Of a stretch of 64,000 bases of DNA, positions 53,799 through 63,843 are shown piece after piece. The notes beneath the pieces were generated by a model. That model made no database searches. It worked only from the letters and a program-made list of their open reading frames with translations, and had not been told where the DNA came from. Each line of letters starts with the position of its first letter. The first letter of the stretch is position 1. The position numbers and the translations under genes were made by a program. Source of the DNA: Curvivirga aplysinae (lineage in GTDB: Bacteria; Pseudomonadota; Alphaproteobacteria; UBA8366; Aestuariispiraceae); the NCBI RefSeq assembly GCF_009711445.1, contig NZ_SMMC01000216.1:1-64000 (forward strand), read 5' to 3'.

Positions 53799-55286
53799 AT
53801 GAAAATGCCAGAACCCGAAATCGGGATCATAAATCGAAGACAAGAAATTGCTGATGCATTGCGTGCAATCGTACCAGGCGAAGGCGTTATTGTGGATGAA
53901 GCAGAACTTCGTCCATATGAATCAGATGGCCTAACAGCCTATCAAACATTACCTTTAATCGTTGTTTTACCAGAAACAGTGGAACAAGTTGCTGCGGTCA
54001 TGCAATATTGCGGCAAAGAAGGTATCAAAGTTGTACCACGTGGCGCAGGGACCTCATTATCAGGCGGTGCATTGCCCTTAGCTGATGGCATCATATTGGG
54101 GTTAGGTAAATTCAAGAAAATCTTGGAAATAGATTATGATAATCGCTGCGCCCGTGTACAGCCAGGGGTCACCAATCTGGGAATCACGCATGCCGTAATG
54201 GCCGATGGATTTTATTATGCCCCTGACCCATCTAGTCAGATCGCATGCACGATCGGTGGGAATGTAGCTGAAAATTCCGGTGGTGTGCACAGTTTGAAAT
54301 ACGGCCTAACAACAAACAATCTTCTAGGCATTGAATTTGTCACGATCGAAGGTGAGATCATTCGCGTTGGCGGTAAACATCTTGAATCTGAAGGATATGA
54401 TCTTCTTGGTCTTATGACAGGCTCAGAAGGCTTGTTAGGCGTTGTGACAGAAGTAACAGTGCGCCTCCTTAAAGCACCCGATACGGCCCGTGCATTATTA
54501 TTAGGCTTTGAGACACCAGAAGCCGCAGGGGAATGTGTTGCAGCCATTATTGGTGCAGGTATCATCCCCGGCGGCATGGAGATGATGGATAGCCCTGCCA
54601 TCAACGCGGCTGAGGATTTTGTAAATGCGGGGTATCCGCGCGATGCAGGCGCCTTACTGATTGTCGAACTGGATGGGCCAGAAGTTGAAGTCGACCACCT
54701 TATAGAAAAGGTAAACGAGATTGCACAGGCAAACGGATCGACTTATCTGCGAATTTCACAAAATGAAGAAGAACGTATGAACTTCTGGGCAGGGCGCAAG
54801 GCCGCCTTCCCTGCTGTCGGGCGGATTTCACCTGATTACTATTGTATGGATGGCACAATCCCACGCAGCCAGATTTCAACCGTCTTGAGTGGTATGCGTG
54901 AATTATCTGAACAGTATGGTCTTGGTGTCGCCAATGTTTTCCATGCAGGTGATGGAAACCTTCATCCCTTGATCATGTATGATGCAAATAAACCCGGTGA
55001 ATTGGAAAAAGCCGAAGATTTTGGAGCTGATATTTTGAAGCTTTGCGTCAAAGTTGGCGGAGTATTAACAGGTGAACATGGTGTTGGTGTTGAGAAACGT
55101 GATCTGATGGGTGAAATGTTTACTGAAGATGACCTGAAACAGCAGCAACGCGTTAAATGCGCATTCGATCCAGATCATCTACTGAATCCCGGTAAGGTAT
55201 TCCCGACATTGCATCGTTGTGCGGAAATGGGACGAATGCATATTCATAAAGGGAAAATCCCTTTCCCGGATATTCCACGTTTCTGA
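53799..55286 (+). CDS. glcD: Glycolate oxidase FAD subunit GlcD
   Basis: Oxidises glycolate to glyoxylate with GlcE and GlcF, feeding electrons into the respiratory chain. The FAD site is PRGAGTSLSGGALPL, then GGNVAENSGGVHSLKYGLT; the C-terminal part has FHAGDGNLHPL and GVLTGEHGVGVEKRDLM. The length of 495 residues is normal. It is the first gene of glcDEF, 39 bases before glcE. A GNTR-type glcC regulator is not adjacent. Confidence 0.95.
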   Translation: MKMPEPEIGIINRRQEIADALRAIVPGEGVIVDEAELRPYESDGLTAYQTLPLIVVLPETVEQVAAVMQYCGKEGIKVVPRGAGTSLSGGALPLADGIILGLGKFKKILEIDYDNRCARVQPGVTNLGITHAVMADGFYYAPDPSSQIACTIGGNVAENSGGVHSLKYGLTTNNLLGIEFVTIEGEIIRVGGKHLESEGYDLLGLMTGSEGLLGVVTEVTVRLLKAPDTARALLLGFETPEAAGECVAAIIGAGIIPGGMEMMDSPAINAAEDFVNAGYPRDAGALLIVELDGPEVEVDHLIEKVNEIAQANGSTYLRISQNEEERMNFWAGRKAAFPAVGRISPDYYCMDGTIPRSQISTVLSGMRELSEQYGLGVANVFHAGDGNLHPLIMYDANKPGELEKAEDFGADILKLCVKVGGVLTGEHGVGVEKRDLMGEMFTEDDLKQQQRVKCAFDPDHLLNPGKVFPTLHRCAEMGRMHIHKGKIPFPDIPRF

Positions 55287-55325
55287 TCTTTAACTGATAA
55301 TCTTAATGAAGATAAGGTAATTTCC

Positions 55326-56594
55326 GTGTCTCAAAATGAAATCACAACCTTTCAACCTTCCGATGAAGCTCAGTTAAAAGAAGCAATAACTTGGGCAATT
55401 TCCGAACGGAAATCGCTTTACCTTCAAGGTGGGAATAGTAAAGCAAATCTTGGTCGCCCGACGGAAGGTATATGTGAAGCAAAACTTTCCATGACCTCTT
55501 TTGCTGGTATTCGTGAATATGAATCTGCCGAACTCATCATGCGTACCGGCGCTGCAACAACTATAAAAGAAGTTCAAGCTGCCCTCTCAAAAACAAATCA
55601 GATGCTCGCTTTTGAACCGATGGATTATTCTGCTTTGCTTGGATTATCTCCTGACGACGCGATGAAATCGACGATCGGTGGTATCTTTGCCTGTAATCTG
55701 GCAGGTCCACGTCGCATTTCTGCCGGATCGGCACGGGACCATTTGCTGGGTTTCCAAGCAATTTCTGGTCGTGGGGAGGCTTATAAATCCGGTGGGCAAG
55801 TCATGAAGAATGTAACGGGATATGACCTCAGCAAGCTAATGGCCGGGTCATGGGGAACGCTTGGTGCAATGCATGAAACCACATTTAAGGTACTCCCAAA
55901 ACCCGAAACCAGTCGTACAATTTTGATTACAGATGTAGACCATCATCTTGCCAGTCAAATCATGTCTCAGGCCATGCAGACATCCTATGATGTTTCTGGT
56001 GCGGCATGGTTACCTGATAATCTTGCAAAACATTCTACTATAGACGTTTTGCGTTTGGCGGACAAAAACATTGCAGCCTGCCGACTGGAAGGGCCTGAAC
56101 CATCAGTTAAAACACGTTTAAAATCTTTACGCGATATGTTCGCCGAACATGGCAAAATAGAAGAACTTCACGAGGAAAATAGTGAAGTTTTCTGGCGAGA
56201 AATTCGGGATGTTATTCCTTTTGCCAAGTCTATTGATGAACGGGTCATCTGGAAAGCTTCAGTTGCGCCGACAGATGGTGCTAAGTTGATTGATGCTTTA
56301 TCCGGTTTAAATAATCCCGATTTCTTTATGGATTGGGCTGGCGGTTTGGTCTGGATTGCTGTAGATGCACCTAAAATCGGAAGTGCCGATATTATCCGTA
56401 ATGAAGTTAATAAATTGGGAGGTCATGCAACACTTATCCGTGGCTCACATGAACTTCGTATAGAACATGAAGTATTTCATCCTCAAGCAGCATCTCTAGC
56501 TGCATTGTCCAAACGTATCAAAGATCAGTTTGATCCACTCGGCATATTAAATACTGCTCGAATGTATTCTACCCATCAAAAGCGGGAGGGATAA
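55326..56594 (+). CDS. glcE: Glycolate oxidase FAD-binding subunit GlcE
   Basis: 422 residues, a shorter relative of GlcD. LYLQGGNSKANLGRP, LAFEPMDYSALLG, and VMKNVTGYDLSKLMAGSWGTLGA are GlcE signatures. The start is GTG, with AAGG about ten bases upstream. It is three bases from glcF, so the operon is tight. Confidence 0.93.
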   Translation: MSQNEITTFQPSDEAQLKEAITWAISERKSLYLQGGNSKANLGRPTEGICEAKLSMTSFAGIREYESAELIMRTGAATTIKEVQAALSKTNQMLAFEPMDYSALLGLSPDDAMKSTIGGIFACNLAGPRRISAGSARDHLLGFQAISGRGEAYKSGGQVMKNVTGYDLSKLMAGSWGTLGAMHETTFKVLPKPETSRTILITDVDHHLASQIMSQAMQTSYDVSGAAWLPDNLAKHSTIDVLRLADKNIAACRLEGPEPSVKTRLKSLRDMFAEHGKIEELHEENSEVFWREIRDVIPFAKSIDERVIWKASVAPTDGAKLIDALSGLNNPDFFMDWAGGLVWIAVDAPKIGSADIIRNEVNKLGGHATLIRGSHELRIEHEVFHPQAASLAALSKRIKDQFDPLGILNTARMYSTHQKREG

Positions 56595-56597
56595 GAC

Positions 56598-57893
56598 ATG
56601 CAAACAAATTTCTCTATCCAGCAGCTCGCAAATCCTGGAATCAAAGAAGCGGAAAGCATCCTGCGCAAATGTGTTCATTGTGGTTTTTGCACCGCAACCT
56701 GTCCAACTTATACCCTGTTAGGGGATGAACTAGATTCACCGCGCGGTCGTATCTATCAAATCAAGGATATGTTGGAAAATGAACGTCCGGCATCCCCGCA
56801 AGTTACAAAACATATTGATCGCTGTTTATCCTGTTTGTCATGTATGACGACCTGCCCATCTGGTGTTCATTACATGCATTTGGTGGATCATGCACGTGCC
56901 TATATTGAGCAAACCCATACGCGCCCTTTACCTGAACGTATGTTGCGTCAGATATTAAAAATCGTTTTGCCAAATCCCGGCTTATTTCGCATCGCATTGG
57001 TGGGGGCTTTCTTCGCTAAACCTTTTGCCGGCTTTATGCCGGGGCGCTTAAAGGGTTTGGTAAAAATGGCCCCAAGTCGTATTTTGCCACCGTCGCAATA
57101 TGACAAACCGCAAAGTTTTAAGGCTGAGAAAAAGAAACGTGGCCGTGTTGTTTTGATGAATGGCTGCGCGCAAAAAGTCCTCAATACAGATATCAATGAA
57201 GCGACCATTCGTCTTCTAACCCGTTTAGGTGTGGAAGTCGTGGTTGCTAAAGGAGCCGGATGCTGCGGAGCCTTAGTACATCATATGGGCGATGAAGATA
57301 AATCGCATCACCAAGCAGCAGCAAATATTAACGCTTGGATGAATGAGGTTGATGGTGAAGGCTTAGATGCAATCGTTATTAACGCATCAGGTTGTGGCAC
57401 AACTGTTAAAGATTACGGCTTCATGTTCCGAAATGACGAGAAATATGCTGAAAAGGCAACTAAAGTTTCTGAACTCGCGAAAGATATAACCGAATATCTG
57501 GCTGAACTTGATATAGCAGATGACGTAAAGGCACCCGAAGAATTACGGGTAACTTATCATTCTGCTTGTTCCCTTCAACATGGGCAAAAGATCACATCCA
57601 CACCAAAGGTTTTACTTGAACAAGCTGGTTTTAAAGTGACAACACCAAACGAGTCACATCTATGCTGTGGGTCCGCAGGTACTTATAATCTAATGCAGCC
57701 GGAAATTGCGAATCAGTTAAAAGATCGAAAGCTTAAAAATATTCAAGCGACGGAACCTGAAGTGATCGCCGCTGGTAATATCGGTTGTATGACGCAAATC
57801 GGGTCTGCTGCCAATGTCCCCGTCGTTCACACGGTTGAATTACTAGATTGGGCAAATGGCGGTCCCAAACCGTCGGCTTTATCTCAACAATAA
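56598..57893 (+). CDS. glcF: Glycolate oxidase iron-sulfur subunit GlcF
   Basis: 431 residues. Two 4Fe-4S motifs open the protein: CVHCGFCTATCPTY and CLSCLSCMTTCPSGV. Two CCG-type domains follow, with GAGCCGALVHHMG and NESHLCCGSAGTYNLMQP. It passes electrons from the GlcDE flavins to the membrane quinone pool. It is the last gene of the operon before a bidirectional terminator. Confidence 0.95.
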   Translation: MQTNFSIQQLANPGIKEAESILRKCVHCGFCTATCPTYTLLGDELDSPRGRIYQIKDMLENERPASPQVTKHIDRCLSCLSCMTTCPSGVHYMHLVDHARAYIEQTHTRPLPERMLRQILKIVLPNPGLFRIALVGAFFAKPFAGFMPGRLKGLVKMAPSRILPPSQYDKPQSFKAEKKKRGRVVLMNGCAQKVLNTDINEATIRLLTRLGVEVVVAKGAGCCGALVHHMGDEDKSHHQAAANINAWMNEVDGEGLDAIVINASGCGTTVKDYGFMFRNDEKYAEKATKVSELAKDITEYLAELDIADDVKAPEELRVTYHSACSLQHGQKITSTPKVLLEQAGFKVTTPNESHLCCGSAGTYNLMQPEIANQLKDRKLKNIQATEPEVIAAGNIGCMTQIGSAANVPVVHTVELLDWANGGPKPSALSQQ

Positions 57894-61572: not shown

Positions 61573-61740
61573 ATGAGCGTTCAAGATCGTATCCAGACAC
61601 TAAAATCACGCCACGAAGAATTAGATAAGAAACTGGACATGGAAAACGCGCGACCGATGCCGGATGATGAGGTCATTCGAACTATCAAACATGAAAAATT
61701 GACCCTCAAAGATGAAATGACGCGTATGGCGCATGCCTAG
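61573..61740 (+). CDS. DUF465 (YdcH-family) small protein
   Basis: 55 residues: MSVQDRIQTLKSRHEELDKK, then an acidic bridge and TIKHEKLTLKDEMTRMAHA. It matches the short two-helix DUF465 family, common in alphaproteobacteria, of unknown function. AAGGGAG lies seven bases upstream of the ATG, and a near-perfect hairpin terminator follows within 40 bases. Confidence 0.88.
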   Translation: MSVQDRIQTLKSRHEELDKKLDMENARPMPDDEVIRTIKHEKLTLKDEMTRMAHA

Positions 61741-61769: not shown

Positions 61770-61799
61770 AAAGCCGCATCAAACTATTGATGCGGCTTT
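61770..61799. terminator. Bidirectional terminator between DUF465 and the CheW-globin gene
   Basis: Thirteen-base perfect arms AAAGCCGCATCAA (61770-61782) and TTGATGCGGCTTT (61787-61799) with a four-base loop. T-rich flanks occur on both strands. Confidence 0.92.
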
Positions 61800-61825: not shown

Positions 61826-62926
61826 TTAAGAAACATCAAGTACCTTAATACGTGTCTCATCAATCACAGACATAATACGATCAACAATCTCAGGTTCTGT
61901 TTGTAAATCCATTAATGTCGCATGCATATTTGTACCTGCCGACATAAAATGATCATCACCAAGGCCTGGTTGTTTAATGAATGCCAAATAAGCAGATTCT
62001 AACAATGGCGCCCCCGGATTACCATAGGCGGCGTTAAACAGGTTGACCAATAAATCAAGAAGCTTGGCATCATTAAGATCTTTAAACAAATCACTCAAAA
62101 TCGGATCACTATCAACACGTGCAGCAAATTTCTCAACCGCTAACATTGCTTTTTGTTCATGATCCGCATTCACCCCAGAGGCGGCAGGACCAGATGATAC
62201 TGGCGCAGAAGGCGCAGGTTTAGATTTTGCAACTGTCGATTTCGGTGCAGGTTTTGGTTTTGCATCCGATTTAGGTTTTAATGTGGATTTCTTGGCACTC
62301 TTTGGCGCTTCTTTTTTTACTGAAGAAGCCTTGGGAGTGCCTTTAGGCTTTTTTACAGAAGCGTCCTCCGCTTCGTCATCGCCATCATTTTGGTTCGCAA
62401 CCTTCTCTTCCACCACCACTTTTCTGCGTTTACGGGTTCTCCGTGGTGTTTTCATAATGGTTTCTTCTTCCAACATGCGTTCCACATCAAGTACAACAAG
62501 CAAGTCATCTTCCAAACGGAAAACACCGGAACATAAACGACGTAAATTTTCATCCAATGTAGCAGGTGGTTTATCGAAACTTTTACGCGGTAAAGAACGA
62601 ACATCACCGATACTGTCCACCAAAAAGGTGTATAAATCACCTTTATATTCAACAGTAACGCTCATTTGTTTTTCGTTATCATCAACGGAGCGAGAACCAA
62701 GTAGTTCACGCATATCAATCACCGTAACAATACGACCACGAAGGTTTAACACACCAGCAATCGCGCCTGGAGCTAAAGGAACAGGTGTGATTTGGTCAGG
62801 TTCGACAATATCTTGAACCATTAAAATAGGAATACCAAATGCTTGGCCATCCACAGTCATGGTGACAAGCTGTTCCTCATCAATCATTGCTAACTCTCTT
62901 GAATCTGCAAGTGCAATATCAGACAC
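61826..62926 (-). CDS. CheW-domain protein fused to a C-terminal truncated-globin-like domain
   Basis: 366 residues. A CheW domain covers about 15-155: TVDGQAFGIPILMVQDIVEP, GVLNLRGRIVTVIDMRELLG, and VDSIGDVRSLP are typical of the receptor-kinase coupling protein. A Lys/Pro/Ala/Ser-rich linker fills about 160-255. Residues 258-360 align by eye with truncated hemoglobins: AVEKFAARVDSDPILSDLF, NDAKLLDLL, GLGDDHFMSAGTNMHATL. By that alignment the proximal histidine is Tyr313, the distal position Leu292 and B10 tyrosine Ala268, so heme binding looks lost. No other chemotaxis gene is near. It may couple receptors to a kinase through a scaffold or sensor role. Confidence 0.8.
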   Translation of the reverse strand: MSDIALADSRELAMIDEEQLVTMTVDGQAFGIPILMVQDIVEPDQITPVPLAPGAIAGVLNLRGRIVTVIDMRELLGSRSVDDNEKQMSVTVEYKGDLYTFLVDSIGDVRSLPRKSFDKPPATLDENLRRLCSGVFRLEDDLLVVLDVERMLEEETIMKTPRRTRKRRKVVVEEKVANQNDGDDEAEDASVKKPKGTPKASSVKKEAPKSAKKSTLKPKSDAKPKPAPKSTVAKSKPAPSAPVSSGPAASGVNADHEQKAMLAVEKFAARVDSDPILSDLFKDLNDAKLLDLLVNLFNAAYGNPGAPLLESAYLAFIKQPGLGDDHFMSAGTNMHATLMDLQTEPEIVDRIMSVIDETRIKVLDVS

Positions 62927-63126
62927 GGCGATATCCCCTTATTCCTAAAATAAATTCGGTACGATATTTTATTCTGTCTCTTCCAGGTGAAAAGACATAA
63001 ATCTAGAAATCAAGTGTAGCATCTATCTAATCGAATATACAAACCAAATAGCAAACACATCCTTGACTTACTTTAATTATTAAGCCTTCTTCCTGAATTA
63101 AAATCAAGTTTTAAGTGGATATTTTT

Positions 63127-63843
63127 ATGACTAAGTCGTTAATTTCTATAAATGATCAAGATTACCTCGTGAATCTTCCCTCACCGATGTCCAGCGATGA
63201 TCCTCAGCAAGCCGAATTAGATACTTTTCTTTTTGCACATGGGGCGGGTGCGCCCATGGATTCTGAATATATGGAAAACATCGCTCATTTACTTAGCCAC
63301 GAAGGTCTGCGGGTTGTCCGTTTTGAGTTTCCTTACATGCGTCAAAGACGAGAAGATGGAAAAAAGCGTCCACCCAACAGAGAAAACATTTGTCTTGAGA
63401 CATGGCAACAAGCAGTTGAAGATTGGCAGGCTACGGGCAATATCTTTATTGCTGGAAAGTCAATGGGTGGACGTATGGCTTCCATTCTCGCAGCAAAGAA
63501 CAGCGAATTCAATCTCCCTATAAAAGCGGTCTTCTGTCTAGGATATCCGTTTCATGCACCTGGTAAGACTGATAAGTGGAAAACTGACCATTTTACTAAT
63601 ATTAAATTGCCAACATTTATCCTGCAGGGAGATCGAGATCCCTTTGGAAAATCGGAAGAAATCAGCCAATTACAAATAGATAACCCACACTGGCCGAATC
63701 GAGATGAAGATGGCCCTATTTCCATTACTTGGATACCAGATGGAGACCATGATTTTAAGCCAAGAGTTAAAAGTGGGTACACTCATGACGAAAATTTATC
63801 GTCCGTAACAAAGAAAATTTCAACTTATATTAGAAAAATATGA
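63127..63843 (+). CDS. Alpha/beta hydrolase of the KANL3/Tex30-like family
   Basis: 238 residues. LFAHGAGAPMDSEYMENIA opens the fold; the nucleophile is in AGKSMGGRMAS, the acid in LQGDRDPFG and the histidine in PDGDHDFKP. This set matches the bacterial group with hydrolase domains related to Tex30 and dienelactone hydrolase. The substrate is unknown. I chose the ATG at 63127 with AGTGGA upstream; a GTG four codons earlier is possible. Confidence 0.82.
   Translation: MTKSLISINDQDYLVNLPSPMSSDDPQQAELDTFLFAHGAGAPMDSEYMENIAHLLSHEGLRVVRFEFPYMRQRREDGKKRPPNRENICLETWQQAVEDWQATGNIFIAGKSMGGRMASILAAKNSEFNLPIKAVFCLGYPFHAPGKTDKWKTDHFTNIKLPTFILQGDRDPFGKSEEISQLQIDNPHWPNRDEDGPISITWIPDGDHDFKPRVKSGYTHDENLSSVTKKISTYIRKI

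Follow-up and report, generated by a model that had tools for sequence, protein, structure and literature searches.

A chemotaxis coupling protein CheW carries a truncated-haemoglobin-like domain without the usual haem ligands in Curvivirga aplysinae

The window, by which we mean the whole stretch of DNA that was analysed, covers 64,000 nucleotides of a contig from Curvivirga aplysinae (NZ_SMMC01000216.1). Near its end, a single ORF of 366 aa runs on the minus strand from a GTG start at 62926 to a stop codon ending at 61826, and it is open and orthologous in 22 other genomes. The CheW domain takes up residues 19-154 (62465-62872, minus strand; Pfam PF01584, E-value 1.6e-34), with the same coordinates returned by a genome search. 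It is followed by a linker of about residues 159-250 (62177-62452, minus strand), which is charged, of low complexity and rich in Lys, Pro and Ala; it was read from the translation and has no domain match. The remainder, about residues 251-365 (61832-62176, minus strand), is a group 1 truncated-haemoglobin (trHb1)-like domain that is inferred to be haem-less. A terminator-like hairpin followed by a T run lies directly 3' of the gene (61771-61798, minus strand; read by eye without a scan), which possibly indicates a single-gene transcript. On the other side, a divergent gene (63115-63843, plus strand) encodes an alpha/beta-hydrolase-like protein according to tblastn. Besides, a small ORF at 61573-61740 (plus strand; MSVQDRIQTLKSRHEELDKKL...) looks DUF465/YdcH-like by eye, and three successive genes at 53799-57893 (plus strand) resemble the glycolate oxidase subunits GlcD, GlcE and GlcF, also by eye. 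The original prediction, made without database searches, had placed a gene with the order CheW, Lys/Pro-rich linker and truncated-haemoglobin-like domain at 61826-62926, and both the order and the coordinates held.

When the globin domain was searched alone against Pfam and NCBIfam, no match was found. A single-sequence phmmer search against PDB, however, returned cyanoglobin 2ksc (E-value 2.1e-5), 1uvx (1.5e-4) and 1dly (4.1e-4), with nearly the whole domain covered. The AlphaFold2 model, built from an alignment of 16 related domains, is all helical with a pLDDT of 88.1 and a pTM of 0.80, and in a Foldseek search of it against PDB ranks 1-46 are all truncated haemoglobins (probability 0.97-1.00, query TM 0.55-0.72, best E-value 1.3e-3). 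Structure prediction, fold search and profile search with truncated globins as matches all support the claim of a globin-like end in the original prediction. As a control, the model of a haem-competent orthologous domain gave a TM of 0.78-0.91 to trHb1 structures (best E-value 4.6e-8) against 0.58-0.72 for the window's domain, both models being built without haem. The models thus predict for the window's domain a truncated haemoglobin fold that is less similar to structures with haem, which is what a collapse of the pocket would give. Membership in HemAT or the globin-coupled sensors was rejected, as the best 46 fold matches are 2/2 globins and Pfam found no MCP domain. Conservation compared by helix across the globin domain revealed no clear partner surface, with helix G somewhat more conserved.

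Membership in the group 1 truncated haemoglobins is met by the 2/2 fold (phmmer, AlphaFold2 and Foldseek) but not by the haem ligands. In an alignment of 34 rows, the pocket of the window's domain consists of Ala268 at B10 (62123-62125, minus strand), Phe281 at CD1, Leu289 at E7, Leu292 at E10 (62051-62053, minus strand), Leu293 at E11, Leu296 at E14 and Tyr313 at F8 (61988-61990, minus strand). In HbN and GlbN, B10 is 21 positions from E7 and 48 from F8, and this spacing was used to place the E-helix positions. Tyr313 stands where haem-competent orthologues have the proximal His, Ala268 where they have Tyr, and Leu292 where cyanoglobins have the distal His (phmmer and alignment for F8 and E10, alignment for B10); the distal pair of B10 Tyr and E11 Gln is replaced by Ala268 and Leu293. 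The original prediction had named Tyr313, Leu292 and Ala268 as the proximal, distal and B10 positions and had aligned ESAY...DDHF with REAH...EHF at exact spacing. All three assignments held, and the spacing is 18 residues, as in REAH...EAHF of the haem-competent orthologue.

The window's family has 11 CheW fusions, in which F8 is Tyr five times, Leu three times, and Val, Ser and His once each. B10 Tyr is found in only one of the 11, and B10 Tyr together with F8 His in none; the fusion with His at F8 is that of genome G011. Within the single genus g6, F8 can be Tyr, Ser or His. The window and its two nearest relatives have the same altered pocket (B10 Ala, CD1 Phe, E11 Leu, F8 Tyr), with an overall identity of 57-69%. 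The nine haem-competent CheW fusions (eight from family f3, one from f2) have F8 His without exception and B10 Tyr in eight cases, while the remaining f2 members are intermediate, such as g14 with both His and Tyr retained, or eroded, such as g18. At least three switches between His and non-His at F8 are required on the CheW tree. The loss of haem ligands nevertheless has a direction, because the sister-family orthologues keep B10 Tyr, CD1 Phe and F8 His. The ligand loss of the original prediction is therefore confirmed in the sequence; the absence of haem itself stays an inference without a spectrum, and a Tyr ligand might in principle hold ferric haem. Where His has been lost, F8 is repeatedly aromatic, with Tyr in five CheW fusions and Phe in many CheA, and this pattern fits a filling of the emptied pocket.

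Searches with the window's protein and with the alignment located the 22 other fusions in three families of the order, the alignment profile giving matches in genome contigs where the single-protein query gave none. This spread over genera and families rules out the idea of an artefact limited to one genome, which the original prediction had named as its refutation. In the window's family, 11 of 14 members from seven genera carry the fusion, all with a full-length open domain; among the remaining three, no CheW was detectable in two, and the third has an unfused one of 163 aa. Named carriers include Aestuariispira insulae, Hwanghaeella grinnelliae and Marivibrio halodurans, all of which are Aestuariispiraceae (Rhodospirillales in NCBI taxonomy). 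The CheWs of the order form one clade, which only the long-branched row L137 joins from outside; among the tree rows, L130 and L136 are fusions and L127 is a truncated contig. In 12 relatives belonging to f1, f2 and f3 the fusion has the alpha/beta-hydrolase-like divergent gene next to it, though this gene does not stand beside every f3 locus. On the basis of the one CheW clade and the shared neighbour, the haem-less and haem-competent CheW fusions share common descent.

Family f4 has a CheW with another long tail and no globin; these CheWs (L019, L020 and L131-L135) fall in the same clade, and their non-globin tails have 106-399 residues. In a tree of the globin domains (about 120 columns), the fused domains of the order do not form one group. 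With so few columns the resolution is too low to tell whether the globin on CheW derives from a free-standing trHb1 or from one carried by CheA.

In eight pairs from the window's family the globin dN is about 3-8 times the CheW dN, compared with 0.8-2.6 times in five f3 pairs. Where sister families keep a full haem site, the globin and CheW evolve at about the same slow rate. In all the pairs compared, pN is lower than pS; synonymous sites are saturated in several pairs, so that dN/dS itself is rough.

To place the fusion in a chemotaxis system, we summarized the che genes of the window's genome, which has two che clusters on different contigs (C132 and C148). The first has the order cheA, cheY, cheB, cheR, a ctrA-like gene, fliI and fliJ (all except cheA identified by eye), and no cheW was found in it. 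Two Azospirillum records hold the same cluster as cheA, cheW, cheY, cheB, cheR, ctrA and fliI, with fliJ where the record reaches far enough. The CheA of the C132 cluster has 931 aa with Hpt, H-kinase_dim, HATPase, two CheW domains and REC in the Pfam scan, and the two CheW domains plus REC agree with the F5 layout as given in Berry et al. 2023 (PMC10782961). The second cluster (L140) has its own unfused CheW. The fusion gene itself sits outside the che cluster. In seven family genomes (G001, G002, G006, G008, G009, G010 and G011) the fusion is the sole CheW outside CheA, the only other CheW domains being the two in one CheA. Membership in CheW is met both by the profile match and by a partner CheA system that otherwise has no adaptor, as judged from the C132 cluster and from the seven relatives. 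Since the main che cluster lacks the cheW of Azospirillum and seven relatives have no free CheW other than the fusion, the fusion very probably serves as the working adaptor of an F5-type flagellar chemotaxis system. This role is inferred, with no binding data for CheA P5 or receptor tips and no CheA tree.

The same globin module also occurs inside CheA. When the globin alignment was run against 385 genomes of the class, trHb1 domains turned up within frames of 870-1200 aa, and several of these lie next to cheW. Eight genomes (G346, G102, G124, G165, G268, G134, G138 and G238) have a CheA with a trHb1 with F8 His between Hpt and H-kinase_dim, and G102 and G124 have a second globin copy at the tandem CheW region. 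The corresponding haem-competent loci are L183 and L185-L191, with the second copy in L185 and L186. Eroded globins stand in the same place in other CheA proteins: F8 is Phe in Emcibacter and relatives, Gly in Kordiimonas and relatives, and Met in Iodidimonas muriae. A second class search added eleven more genomes, mostly with eroded domains, though G250 retains His and Tyr, which brings the CheA-borne globin to 19 of 385 genomes in total. Probably haem-less domains of this kind were recorded at L047-L089 (Emcibacter, Kordiimonas, Iodidimonas and relatives) and L198-L209, where F8 is Phe, Gly, Met, Ala, Leu or missing and L201 keeps His; gaps make the exact F8 assignment in eroded CheA domains uncertain. 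The free CheW of genomes with a globin in CheA, where listed, is unfused and has 165-191 aa. No globin, even a degenerate one, was found in the CheA of the window's genome, whose Hpt-dimerisation stretch is of low complexity. In the lineages checked, which are not an exhaustive survey, the module is on CheA or on CheW and never on both. Plasmid searches with the CheA-type globins gave matches which, where annotated, are free-standing trHb1. Because the same module sits in the partner kinase CheA of other Alphaproteobacteria, the globin is likely to be built into the core of the chemotaxis array itself.

For the gene as a whole we favour, with moderate confidence, an explanation that combines an adaptor, an ancestral haem globin, haem loss and a retained haem-less interaction module. 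The gene product would act as the CheW coupling protein in the bacterium's F5-type flagellar chemotaxis system; the adaptor role is inferred, and the lack of another free CheW in most relatives is shown. In an ancestor within the order, a haem-binding trHb1 would have been joined behind CheW via a long flexible linker, and here the fusion and its common descent with haem-competent fusions are shown. This ancestral globin, putatively able to bind O2 or NO, would have hung from the CheA/CheW ring near the kinase. Such a gas input is inferred; the presence of the module in CheA elsewhere is shown. In Aestuariispiraceae the haem pocket would then have been lost while CheW was still strongly constrained; the loss of haem residues is shown, the absence of haem inferred. 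The present domain may be a folded, haem-less appendage that evolves fast; most likely it has ceased to sense gas and acts at the array in packing or protein interactions. The fold is shown, and the interaction role, like the other inferred steps, has no biochemical data behind it; of the sensing or partner-binding role suggested in the original prediction, neither part is confirmed and the role remains unproven. Three observations weigh against this explanation. G011 has His at F8; the altered pocket shared by the window and its two nearest relatives (Ala, Leu, Leu, Tyr) may mean a new ligand or a Tyr-ligated ferric haem rather than erosion; and fast evolution is equally expected of a domain that is being lost.

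The last point leads to the reading in which the globin is a decaying leftover, functionless after haem loss and kept only since a C-terminal truncation has not yet occurred. It is supported by the raised globin dN in the window's family (3-8 times that of CheW), by the variation of F8 inside genus g6 and by the f4 CheW with a different tail and no globin. We nevertheless regard it as unlikely: all 11 fusion-carrying family members in seven genera have a full-length open domain, pN is the lower of pN and pS throughout, folding of the window's domain is predicted with high confidence, and eroded globins also persist in the CheA of several other families. An artefact of assembly or annotation is all but excluded. 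No support for it was found, apart from the fact that the window's genome is in 216 contigs, and the same uninterrupted ORF stands in the 22 other genomes, including the single-contig assemblies G001, G009 and G011, with the conserved neighbour.

Two further readings keep a ligand in the pocket, and both appear very unlikely. The domain might still bind haem, with Tyr313 as a ferric axial or other ligand, and sense redox state, NO or haem. A change of His to Tyr at F8 is the classical haemoglobin M change, and Tyr stands at F8 in five of 11 family members, with an identical pocket in the window and its two nearest relatives. However, B10 and E11 are replaced as well, F8 is Leu, Val or Ser elsewhere in the family and Phe or Gly in CheA-borne relatives, and the model departs from haem-bound structures. 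Alternatively, the emptied pocket might now bind a different small molecule, making the adaptor a haem-independent sensor. For this speak the residues common to the window and its two nearest relatives despite their divergence, and the precedent of HemAT, which binds ethanol without haem involvement (PMC7542364); against it, the pocket varies from one subgroup of the family to another, bulky side chains at F8 and in helix E tend to occupy the cavity, and no ligand is known.

In the open-access literature searched (subscription journals were outside its scope), we found no description of CheW or CheA fused to a truncated haemoglobin or globin. The words 'globin' and 'heme' are both absent from the main text of the CheA survey by Berry et al. 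2023, and the survey gives the Hpt-dimerisation stretch as P2 or unstructured (PMC10782961; supplement not covered), while a 2026 aerotaxis review mentions HemAT-type globin receptors without the word 'truncated' (PMC13401364). CheW and trHb1 are both known as families. What appears to be new is the way they are combined, the occurrence of the fusion in haem-competent and haem-less forms, and the CheA parallel. A bolder reading, against which we lean slightly at present, is that trHb1 serves as a recurrent, receptor-independent O2/NO input in the baseplate of alphaproteobacterial F5-type arrays, placed on CheA in the Hpt-dimerisation stretch or behind CheW, and that haem was repeatedly lost in both, with the haem-less globin still tuning phosphotransfer or array assembly. 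The accepted view is that CheA and CheW themselves contain no sensor (Berry et al., PMC10782961), and a baseplate gas input, if true, would violate the rule that only dedicated receptors pass input to CheA systems. Haem-competent and haem-less adaptors within one order are matched natural pairs and make two things directly testable: whether gas acts on the chemotaxis kinase directly, and what remains after haem loss.

The fusion can also be set beside several known systems. Like the CheW (PF01584) of F5-type systems, it has a full CheW domain and a partner CheA with the F5 layout (PMC10782961), but the ordinary CheWs compared, the outgroup of the tree included, stop 7-8 residues past the aligned CheW region, whereas the fusion runs about 210 further and its gene lies apart from the che genes. 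With group 1 truncated haemoglobins such as cyanoglobin GlbN, M. tuberculosis HbN and Chlamydomonas THB1, which are its best matches, the domain shares the 2/2 fold, the trHb1 spacing of B10, E7 and F8 and the GL..DHF signature; it differs from them in having no proximal His, B10 Tyr or E11 Gln and in being fused to CheW. In the trHb1-carrying CheA, a globin of the same family sits on the second core protein of the ring that CheA and CheW form, likewise in haem-competent and eroded versions, but between Hpt and H-kinase_dim of the kinase instead of appended to the adaptor. CheV (CheW-REC) is also an adaptor with an extra C-terminal domain, which is a phosphoacceptor in CheV and a globin here. 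RsbR of stressosomes, to which the original prediction had pointed, offers a haem-free globin fold within a large signalling complex. The non-haem globin of RsbR belongs to the sensor-globin lineage, and the comparison holds only as an analogy: RsbR is a 3/3 sensor globin, while the window's domain is a 2/2 trHb1 in which haem loss would be secondary, within a family that still has haem-competent members (CheW siblings and CheA cousins). HemAT and the globin-coupled sensors resemble the fusion in that a globin feeds a chemotaxis system, but theirs is a 3/3 globin on a receptor (PMC13401364) and not a 2/2 globin on an adaptor or kinase. Apart from these, L184 (4464-7328) and L192 both encode a trHb1 with PAS repeats behind it; in L184 an MCP signalling domain is present as well, making it a receptor in which a 2/2 globin takes the place of the 3/3 globin of HemAT.
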